Notes under the pieces: generated by a model
Seen by the model: the letters and a program-made list of their open reading frames with translations, nothing else
Told to the model about the DNA's origin: nothing
Database searches by the model: none
Virus record (IMG/VR): IMGVR_UViG_3300042350_001849
Span: 1-26,565 of that record
Direction: 5' to 3' (one strand)
DNA length: 26,565 bases
From: a virus
Part shown: in pieces, positions 3,066-22,173 of the stretch
Layout: every line of letters starts with the position of its first letter
Position numbering within the stretch: the first letter of the stretch is position 1
Program-made: the position numbers and the translations under genes

Positions 3066-3124
3066 AATTAATCTCCAATAAGGTTAAGTAGACTAGGGTT
3101 TTCCCTAGTCCATGAGATTAATTA
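3065..3124 (-). promoter_or_regulatory. Nested intergenic RNA hairpin masking a start site
   Basis: The outer 11-bp arms at 3065-3075 (TAATTAATCTC) and 3114-3124 are perfect complements. Inside them sits a perfect 8-bp stem with a 4-nt loop (GACTAGGG, 3091-3098, with 3103-3110). In the leftward mRNA the first outer arm begins at the stop codon of the 140-aa gene. The second contains the GGAG-ATTAATT-ATG start region of the 94-aa gene. No U-tract follows the inner stem, so a simple terminator is unlikely. Confidence 0.75.
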
Positions 3125-3544
3125 AGCGTTGCCAGCTAATGAGCTAGTAATAGCCAACCAAGGAGCTGATTGATTGCCGTTACCACTCCACTGAACAACA
3201 GATTCTGTAGCAACGTTTGCACCAGCAACGTTTTCGTTTACTGGTTGTGTGCCAAAGCCCTTGAGGATATGCACTAAAGTGTCATCTTGATTAAATACCT
3301 GACCACGAATGCCGTTATAGCGTTGATCAGCTGGGTATTGTCCTGGCAAGAAAGTACCGCTAGTTACTTCTGGAAGTACCAAAGTAACCGCAGCAGCAGG
3401 ACCGCCTTGAGCTGTTGCTAGAATAACGTAGGTAGAGCCTGCGTCAATACTAATAGGGGAAGTGTCTGCGGAAGTAATGTAGTTAACAGGCTGCATGAAG
3501 CCGCCTAACGAGTTTACTGGACCGCTAAATGTGGTTTTTGCCAT
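3122..3544 (-). CDS. Putative head decoration/virion protein
   Basis: The product is 140 aa. It starts MAKTTFSGPVNSLGGF and continues with segments such as AGSTYVILATAQGGPAAAVTLVLP. Later it reads YNGIRGQVFNQDDTLVHILKG, with a conserved-looking SVVQWSGNGNQSAPWLAI near the end. Alternating beta-strand character, a glycine-rich turn pattern and position just downstream of the capsid gene fit a decoration or head-surface protein. That is inference; no named family is recognised. It is transcribed after the capsid terminator and has a long 5' leader (3545-3680) with interlocked inverted repeats. Its GGAG ribosome-binding site lies at 3555-3558. Confidence 0.75.
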   Translation of the reverse strand: MAKTTFSGPVNSLGGFMQPVNYITSADTSPISIDAGSTYVILATAQGGPAAAVTLVLPEVTSGTFLPGQYPADQRYNGIRGQVFNQDDTLVHILKGFGTQPVNENVAGANVATESVVQWSGNGNQSAPWLAITSSLAGNA

Positions 3545-3560
3545 GATCGAAAATCTCCGT

Positions 3561-3616
3561 GTTATAGCACATCCTTGTATCGTCTCTATAACGTCTGCTA
3601 GGTCAGTCGATACAAG
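3561..3616 (-). promoter_or_regulatory. Pseudoknot-type leader upstream of decoration gene
   Basis: Two perfect inverted repeats interlock. CTTGTATCG (3574-3582) pairs with 3608-3616, and GTTATAG (3561-3567) pairs with 3586-3592. The order of arms is A-B-A'-B', the topology of an H-type pseudoknot. In the leftward mRNA the stems are 9 and 7 bp with loops of 15, 3 and 6 nt. The final arm ends only 2 nt before the GGAG ribosome-binding site of the 140-aa gene. Confidence 0.6.
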
Positions 3617-3683
3617 TAAAAAGTTCCTAGACGTACCGTAATATTACTACTATTTTGACTTTGTGCAAGCGGTTTTAGCAAAT

Positions 3684-3709
3684 AAAAAACCCCGCTTTGT
3701 GGGCGGGGT
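3684..3709 (-). terminator. Rho-independent terminator after the major capsid gene
   Basis: Read leftward, the sequence forms a CCCCGC / GCGGGG stem (arms 3703-3708 and 3690-3695, extended by one A-T pair) with a 7-nt loop. It is followed by six U residues (A-run 3684-3689). It lies about 20 nt past the capsid stop codon and would end or reduce transcripts coming from terminase to capsid. Confidence 0.9.
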
Positions 3710-3729: not shown

Positions 3730-4638
3730 TTAAGCGCCTGGTGAACCGAACATTCCGAGCGGATCCGAGAATCCGAAAGAATAACGCTCACGAGACTTGT
3801 AACGTACGTTGCCAGTGTCAAAGTCACCGTCCATCGAATTGCTCAATGGTGTACGAACAAAGTGCTTCATGCCGTTTGGAACATCAGTGGTCAAGAACCA
3901 TGCATTTGGCTCGGTCAGGTAGTTATTAACTGTATAACCTTCTGGAATCGAACCATTGTTCTTCAGTGCATTGATGTCGTTGTCAGCTGTACCAGTACGC
4001 AATTCCGTTTCGAGCAAGCGAGTTGCAACGAACTGGAGTTGTGGTGGAACAATCAACTTCTTAGGCTTAGCAGCGATGAGCAAACCGCGCTCGTCTGTCC
4101 ACTGAGCGATCTGAATAACGGCGGCTTCCAAAGAAGTCTCGTTTAAGTCAGAAGGAGTTGCTGGCTCGTTTGAGTTAACTCCACCAGAAACGAGTGGGTG
4201 GTTAGTTGCAAACAACGCAACGCCATCACCGCCTGGGAAAGAAGCACTGAAACCATTGTTCAATACAGAAGCTGCACGAACTTGTTTGGTATACGCCATG
4301 GAACGAGCTAAAGCCTTGGTATAACGAGCAGACAAGGAGTCATACAAGTTATCTTCAATTGCTTCTTCGGTCAGAGAGAAACCTTGAGCGATCGTTACGT
4401 GGGTATAGCGAGCAGTAAATGCCTCTTGTGCATTGTCATAAGCGATTGGTGCGCCTTCGTTTTTAACGGCGGCGGCACTAAAGCCTGACAACTTGGTTTC
4501 TTCTTCGAACGAACGCTCGGAGGTCTCAGTTTCGTAGATCTCTTTGTGTTGTTCGCCATACGTTGCATATTCAAGACCGAACAATGCATTCAATCCTGGG
4601 AGCAACTCTTTCAGTAGTTGTGCGCGTGAAATAGCCAT
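3730..4638 (-). CDS. Major capsid protein (HK97-fold type)
   Basis: The product is 302 aa, within the range of HK97-fold capsid proteins. It opens MAISRAQLLKELLPGLNALF, then has a charged N-arm-like stretch with YGEQHKEIYETETSERSFEE. The middle carries FSLTEEAIEDNLYDSLSARY and the KKLIVPPQLQFVATRLLET segment typical of phage major capsid subunits. It ends RYSFGFSDPLGMFGSPGA, a closing motif I know from Mu gpT-like capsid annotations. No N-terminal protease-cleaved delta domain is obvious; a separate scaffold gene lies upstream. It is followed directly by a strong terminator, consistent with high expression. The GAGC(T) site just upstream of the ATG is a modest ribosome-binding site. Confidence 0.92.
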   Translation of the reverse strand: MAISRAQLLKELLPGLNALFGLEYATYGEQHKEIYETETSERSFEEETKLSGFSAAAVKNEGAPIAYDNAQEAFTARYTHVTIAQGFSLTEEAIEDNLYDSLSARYTKALARSMAYTKQVRAASVLNNGFSASFPGGDGVALFATNHPLVSGGVNSNEPATPSDLNETSLEAAVIQIAQWTDERGLLIAAKPKKLIVPPQLQFVATRLLETELRTGTADNDINALKNNGSIPEGYTVNNYLTEPNAWFLTTDVPNGMKHFVRTPLSNSMDGDFDTGNVRYKSRERYSFGFSDPLGMFGSPGA

Positions 4639-21856: not shown

Positions 21857-22173
21857 TGATTGACGGTTGCTTTTTGGTGAACGCACCTAGCCTATCCTAG
21901 ATGCCTTCAACTGTTGCTTTTCGGAGCCACAGCACCCGCCAGACGTTCGACTTAGGGCTCTGGCTTCGCCACCCTTTCTCCTGTTTCAAGTCTTATCCCA
22001 CAGTAGGAGTTCTTCCCACGCAGCTGTCGTTTAAGATCCGACCTGAGTGGTGTAGCTTGGGGGTCTTACAGAAAAGATGAAGGCAAGAATGCCATCACAT
22101 TTTTTCCATAAAACTCCTAGCCCGATTAGGTTAACCGAACAGAAATAGTTTTGCAACAATTATTTACAAAAGG

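Follow-up and report, generated by a model that had tools for sequence, protein, structure and literature searches.

We find that the leader between the capsid gene and a virion-surface protein gene in this phage DNA (the window, the whole stretch of 26,565 nucleotides that was analysed) encodes a knotted RNA of about 70 nt, at positions 3630-3559 of the minus strand, which reaches up to the Shine-Dalgarno (SD) sequence of the surface-protein gene. Comparison of related sequences indicates that the fold is present in hundreds of aquatic phages, including Pelagibacter and Roseobacter phages as well as freshwater contigs. This structured RNA is abundant in aquatic phages, covaries strongly, is predicted to contain two pseudoknots that interlock and occupies a defined gene slot; it probably controls the amount of surface protein made. 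The putative regulatory RNA stays put even when a different virion-surface gene follows it, and it is directly testable in the cultured phages DSL-LC04, HTVC023P and HTVC027P, whose records contain it.

The leader and its locus

The minus strand of the window carries, in this order, a Mu-gpT-like capsid gene, a terminator, a promoter, the leader and the ORF at 3122-3544 (Table 1). A G+C-rich hairpin with a T-run also lies downstream of the capsid stop in most relatives displayed.

Table 1. Features of the capsid-leader-surface gene locus in the window, in order of transcription
Feature	Position	Strand	Basis
Major capsid gene (Mu gpT-like / Phage_capsid_4)	3730..4638	-	Pfam PF25209 5.7e-15, PF10124 2.9e-10; PHROG 371
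Intrinsic terminator of the capsid transcript (CCCCGC..GCGGGG + T-run)	3684..3708	-	sequence read directly
-35-like TTGCAC	3663..3668	-	sequence read directly
-10-like TAATAT, spacer 16 nt, predicted start near 3634	3641..3646	-	sequence; -10 geometry in relatives
Helix a 5' strand (a5) CTAGG	3626..3630	-	partner 3598-3602
Helix b 5' strand (b5) CTTGTATCG, arm in the sequence-only reading	3608..3616	-	both-side changes at all 9 modelled pairs
Helix c 5' strand (c5) CTG	3604..3606	-	c pairing in 59/60 leaders
Helix a 3' strand (a3) CCTAG, inside the hairpin c loop	3598..3602	-	partner 3626-3630
Helix c 3' strand (c3) CAG, then conserved AC	3595..3597	-	AC in 165/180 leaders
Helix d 5' strand (d5) GTTATAG, arm in the sequence-only reading	3586..3592	-	own helix >=6 bp in 53/60
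Helix b 3' strand (b3) CGATACAAG, conserved GA ahead	3574..3582	-	GA in 161/180
Helix e 5' strand (e5) GTG	3568..3570	-	e stem >=3 bp in 120/180 leaders
Helix d 3' strand (d3) CTATAAC	3561..3567	-	d complementarity in relatives
Helix e 3' strand (e3) CAC; 3561 common to e and d	3559..3561	-	sequence
SD GGAGA	3554..3558	-	sequence
ORF of 140-aa virion-surface (decoration/spike-type) protein	3122..3544	-	fold prediction, structural alignment

A sequence-only reading of the window had described a 136-nt leader holding two interlocked inverted repeats. Both repeats are indeed perfect (GTTATAG 3561-3567 with CTATAAC 3586-3592; CTTGTATCG 3574-3582 with CGATACAAG 3608-3616), and direct reading confirms the 2-nt gap between the inner 3' arm and the SD GGAG of the minus-strand ORF. 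The leader exists, but its 136 nt include a sigma-70-like promoter (TTGCAC-16-TAATAT, 3668-3641), and the RNA proper runs from near 3634. Similarly, both arms of the proposed pseudoknot are real, forming helices b and d, but they are merely two among five helices.

That interlocking arms are rare by chance holds within the leader, where shuffling of its 136 nt gave an interlocked pair in 2 of 3000 runs, but not window-wide, since dinucleotide shuffles of the whole window contained one in 5 of 20 runs. A scan of the window for interlocked perfect arms (at least 7 and at least 9 nt) found this pair as the sole one. The pair is unusual at its position and by itself not decisive; such pairs are common enough in 26-kb shuffles that comparative evidence is required. 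A four-helix descriptor, composed after the relatives had been viewed, scores 59 on the window leader, a value reached by none of 400 shuffles (best 45.5).

The promoter geometry recurs among relatives: 131 of 178 leaders have their best -10-like hexamer 6-11 nt ahead of a5, as against 37 of 178 after shuffling, and sigma-70 geometry therefore predicts that a5 begins at about +2 to +5 in most leaders. At the other end, the SD starts within 6 nt of d3 in 165 of 165 leaders (three of 168 have no SD by the rule used) and overlaps or abuts d3 in 87 of the 165. The SD lies within d3 in 6 of the 165 leaders and in the HTVC027P-type leaders L099, L140 and L131; in the window and sister leaders it is free, just past e3. 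We considered an alternative SD-masking hairpin that helix d would relieve, and rejected it for want of a family-wide effect: the ribosome-binding site is unpaired at 0.575, versus 0.595 with d3 held away and 0.567 in the shuffled-d3 control.

Two further features of the window are recorded here. The Rfam model RF02932 (Betaproteobacteria-1 RNA) matches positions 21934-22052 on the minus strand at full length with 100.3 bits, which may hint at a betaproteobacterial host or may mark a phage RNA. At 674-2297, also on the minus strand, four successive small ORFs have a common C-terminal motif like GKVSSASKRADGCAIKGKTKG, a repeated tail.

Fold, covariation and distribution

The strands follow one another in the order a5 - b5 - A - c5 - a3 - c3 - AC - d5 - GA - b3 - e5 - d3 - e3 - SD, over a length from a5 to d3 of 64-78 nt (median 68). 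Because a3 occupies the loop of hairpin c and d3 that of hairpin e, the predicted RNA is a pair of H-type pseudoknots, a/c and d/e, and one strand of helix b lies in the first loop of each.

Covariation in all five helices supports this fold. Dereplication of 90 leaders left 60; in 55 of these, the 5 nt ahead of c3 have an exact complement upstream of b, compared with 91 of 1640 swapped combinations, and helix d reaches at least 6 bp in 53 of the 60 (swapped, 122 of 2840). Stem c is paired in 59 of the 60, in six sequence versions. Of 180 leaders, 120 form a stem e of 3 bp or more, as against 1735 of 25718 mixed-flank controls. Alignment A4 comprises 79 distinct rows; pairing is seen in 88.6% of its cells, versus a shuffled mean of 62.4% and 39.1% for the best slid control, and both-side changes occur at 22 of 24 pairs, including all 9 modelled pairs of helix b; helices a and d lie outside the covariance model behind A4, and their columns were placed by the author from two rows. 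The 180 distinct leaders contain 115 distinct b5, 34 a5 and 53 d5 strands. In the same 180, the unpaired A before c5 is conserved in 175, the AC after c3 in 165 and the GA before b3 in 161. A strand test of G-U against A-C mismatches gave 117 GU versus 11 AC for b and c, a count biased by the fitted alignment, and was uninformative for helices a and d (1 GU, 2 AC). Searches of the papers, with supplementary catalogues and the ZWD database outside their scope, found no description of the RNA class and no name for its topology.

Relatives were gathered as 13 neighbour loci of the decoration protein and 80 of the capsid protein, the latter kept from at least 600. Both sets show the same arrangement in different letters. 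The first leader set (A1, 68 leaders) leaves out six duplicates, two false descriptor matches (L049 and L089, whose true RNAs were later located by covariance model) and L046; from it, 28 of the 68 leaders were picked by hand for uniform layout (A2). The covariance model R1, built from 28 hand-picked leaders and holding helices b and c only, matched 85 of 100 sources at E<=1. Retrained on those 85 matches, and so not independent for them, model R2 matched 90 of the 100 sources, with one match each and on the coding strand every time; elsewhere in the 671,676 bases it found no further match.

The claim of a conserved, covarying, pseudoknotted 5' leader ahead of a capsid-surface protein gene is thus borne out by the relatives. 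The b + c covariance model finds the RNA in 74 of the 80 capsid loci nearest to the window, and both stems of the sequence-only reading (b and d) covary; neither of the two outcomes that would have refuted that reading, absence of conservation or of covariation, was obtained. Among the six loci in which it is missing, five have at most 405 nt remaining past the capsid gene, and L037 alone of the 80 truly lacks the RNA.

Outside the training sequences, R2 matched 52 of 94 loci (80 HTVC023P-capsid neighbours and 14 contigs from bacterial and archaeal assemblies), with 12 of the 14 capsid-bearing assembly contigs matching. It also matched 39 of 80 MinM2-capsid neighbours and 20 of 80 CRP-902-capsid neighbours, these 20 lying outside the 259-hit set used below. 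A search with a 17-nt core of the RNA, independent of the capsid, returned at least 79 new loci; R2 matches 78 of the 79 listed, which, as the loci were selected by core sequence, shows only that the remaining fold is present. The descriptor, which itself requires complementarity, was applied to 232 distinct leaders and recovered the four main helices in 180; the other 52 include hybrids without helix d and variants that the strict descriptor overlooks (part read by eye). Searched by sequence against cultured phages, two leaders gave a single weak match, HTVC023P.

In a search of 25 records, R2 matched 19, of which 16 hold a single copy; W02 and G006 have weak second matches. One record (G016, that of L049) contains two strong matches at its contig ends (1-2500 and 62000-65464, loci L487/L486), each behind its own capsid gene and HNH-type ORF and ahead of a different decoration family. 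These two modules may reflect duplication or the assembly of strain variants.

Kinship with Mu-gpT-DE and exchange of the downstream gene

A known RNA family as the identity of the leader is ruled out by the Rfam scans. No family of Rfam 15 matches the window leader at gathering or permissive thresholds, in line with the earlier statement that no known riboswitch class is recognisable, since no Rfam riboswitch family matches it. RF03012 (Mu-gpT-DE), whose family threshold is 49 bits, has no match in the window leader at E<=10, nor in 12 related loci or the leaders of further records searched. It occurs only in other loci: it matches Roseobacter phage CRP-902 (L102) in the same slot with 72.3 bits and 9 of 20 further loci, and gives a sub-threshold match of 19.7 bits to the hybrid RNA of L373.

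The Mu-gpT-DE motif reportedly comes from a 2017 NAR paper. Like the window RNA, it sits in the slot after a gpT-type capsid gene, ends at the SD/AUG of the next gene and has the skeleton b-A-c-AC..GA-b3. Unlike the window RNA, its model is without helices a, d and e, and its SD is hidden in b3 with the SD's CAGG closing the outer helix, whereas the window SD follows d3/e3. The junction from c3 to b3 reads ACA..GCCA.GA in Mu-gpT-DE and AC-GTTATAG-AGA, containing d5, in the window. Hybrids make up 32 of the 259 R2 matches and combine helices a, b and c with the Mu-gpT-DE junction [AT]GCCA.GA in place of d5. Furthermore, the Mu-gpT-DE 3' signature appears in 4 of 40, 30 of 60 and 18 of 41 loci that have no R2 match. 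From these sequence features, we infer that the knotted RNA and Mu-gpT-DE form one superfamily, which would give an orphan motif its context. The relevant part of PMC7657543 places RF03012 among families whose published structure has no covarying pairs.

In the hybrid and Mu-gpT-DE-like leaders (e.g., L102 3996-4048 and L373 3512-3586), the conserved GCCA could pair with the UGGC of the start AUGGC, so that the d helix would come to lie over the start codon. An ATGGC start is common to the 27 tabulated Mu-gpT-DE-like leaders and to the hybrids displayed; L304 and L322 are exceptions that start ATGGGCAA and have UUGCC, complementary too. The flanking bases show no covariation, and we set this pairing aside as a result while keeping it as an idea. 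In Synechococcus phage MinM2 (L096 1528-1631), the same-slot leader, which has no R2 or Rfam match, can form a different H-type pseudoknot by eye, with the SD (GGAGACGG) in the 3' strand.

The gene behind the RNA is exchanged. Of the 259 R2 matches, 239 are followed by an ORF of 60 aa or more, and these ORFs belong to four blastp families of 208, 23, 6 and 2 members. Near-identical RNAs precede members of different families in 9 pairs at identity >=0.90 and 52 at >=0.85; in L130/L127, L019/L022 and L043/L050, RNAs that are 92-99% identical stand ahead of proteins without blastp similarity. As a side observation, the proteins of three of the four non-homologous families begin in a similar way (like MAxTTFxGPV), and this segment may be a shared arm that binds the capsid.

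The 140-aa window protein has no Pfam or PHROG match, and searching it and the window capsid protein by sequence against solved structures yielded nothing useful. Its AlphaFold2 model (pLDDT 75.9) aligns in VIA-align with Z of 8-11 to T4 gp9/gp10-type domains, the phage tailspike TSP4 and the Pa223 capsid spike, whose beta domain it is predicted to share; Foldseek gives E of only about 2e-3. The model of a second downstream family is a beta-sandwich (pLDDT 74.8), for which Foldseek returns the KHP40 trimeric cement protein and the Pam1 capsid as weak matches (E about 0.015-0.018). In phage DSL-LC04, the gene at this place is annotated as a cement protein. Because of these structural matches and the DSL-LC04 annotation, the downstream product is likely a decoration protein.

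A gpT-type capsid gene lies upstream of the RNA in 71 of 78 RNA-core loci; among the other seven, the upstream sequence is 309 nt or shorter in five, 912 nt long in L421 and 3.5 kb long in L373. The L373 RNA and its decoration gene sit behind a portal gene, and no capsid gene lies upstream there. Of 251 loci with a capsid match, 38 have the RNA more than 200 nt past the capsid gene, and in those that were read an HNH- or GIY-YIG-like ORF (families named by eye) lies in between. Such ORFs directly behind the capsid gene were seen in L017, L027, L033, L037, L049, L055 and others. Near-identical RNAs before unrelated proteins, together with the copy after a portal gene, therefore tie the RNA to the decoration slot, and it stays with the decoration gene when ORFs insert.

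Candidate roles of the RNA

Since the RNA lies between promoter and SD and its helices reach both ends of the 5' UTR, it is best read as acting in cis on initiation and mRNA stability. From this placement we infer translation gating and 5'-end protection, and we favour, with moderate confidence, a 5'-UTR knot that acts in cis as an exchangeable module of the decoration slot, gating translation initiation and shielding the 5' end of the mRNA. Transcription would start a few nt ahead of helix a, leaving the first mRNA nucleotides paired; in the folded chain, helix a would form one H-type pseudoknot with c and helix d another with e, helix b would zip the two together, and the SD would lie at or within the 3' edge of the second knot. 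Opening of d/e would then set ribosome access to the SD and gate initiation, the base-paired 5' end would protect the mRNA from decay, and the knot would act independently of the surface protein encoded. Against gating, the SD of the window and its sister leaders is free and might not be blocked by the folded knot, and the search for an SD-masking hairpin that helix d would prevent showed no effect across the family. A bolder extension, which we hold to be doubtful, makes the leader a new phage RNA switch: an element constituting the whole 5' UTR, portable between unrelated surface-protein genes, that would time decoration synthesis by sensing a conserved late-infection signal (capsid protein or host state), with Mu-gpT-DE as its reduced descendant or ancestor.

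The strongest rival, tentative yet serious, is that the RNA is a constitutive module only, a 5'-end cap and insulator for steady, high expression of an abundant virion protein, one that senses nothing and never gates the SD. The location of helix a at about +2 to +5 by -10 geometry, the leader's own promoter behind a terminator and the indifference of the RNA to the protein downstream all agree with it. Control of RNase E via 5'-terminal base pairing is established in works cited in PMC3997798, the pertinent part of which describes ompA and papA mRNAs stabilised by 5'-terminal stem-loops. Given its predicted start, the window RNA would resemble these in base pairing from the mRNA 5' end; it differs in being knotted, SD-adjacent and conserved across phages. 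However, a simple 5' hairpin would suffice for protection, whose needs are exceeded by five helices and the conserved unpaired A, AC and GA, and the SD lies within d3 in some members (6/165; L099, L140 and L131).

The gating knot must also be weighed against readings in which something binds it. It is rather unlikely that translation is repressed or activated by a conserved factor, of phage or host, that binds the knot and is distinct from the decoration protein (for example, the capsid protein, a late regulator, a scaffold or a host protein like S1): the gpT-type capsid gene upstream in 71 of 78 RNA-core loci and a candidate binding site in the unpaired A, AC and GA speak for such a factor, but the former is slot association alone, and in L373 the RNA follows a portal gene, though such a capsid may be encoded elsewhere in that phage. 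The same unpaired nucleotides in a compact SD-adjacent pseudoknot might instead bind a small molecule, locking d/e and hiding the SD, by analogy with the SAM-II and preQ1-II riboswitches, in which the 3' pseudoknot strand lies at or over the SD. We consider this improbable, as, unlike those riboswitches, the window RNA has no Rfam riboswitch match, has five helices and serves virion genes only, with about five conserved unpaired nucleotides and a single virion-protein target instead of a regulon. Autoregulation by the encoded virion protein, which the sequence-only reading had offered, is largely refuted and very improbable: the 92-99% identical RNAs before blastp-unrelated proteins argue against it, and the predicted folds of the downstream proteins differ. 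The precedent would be the gene 32 leader of T4, T2 and RB69, for which the part of PMC3014915 concerned describes an H-type pseudoknot that lies ahead of the ribosome-binding site in this phage 5' UTR and serves autoregulation in T4. That leader, similar in these respects, has one pseudoknot 67 nt before the start and an A+U-rich tract and is bound by its own product, whereas the window RNA has two zipped knots abutting the SD and an exchangeable product. Finally, gene swaps just downstream of the RNA could suggest a DNA element, with the inverted repeats serving as an operator or as a conserved joint for decoration-gene exchange. This is scarcely credible, given that a joint requires sequence identity and not pairing, that placement between promoter and SD is fixed, and that compensatory changes run through four interlocked helices with 115 distinct b sequences.
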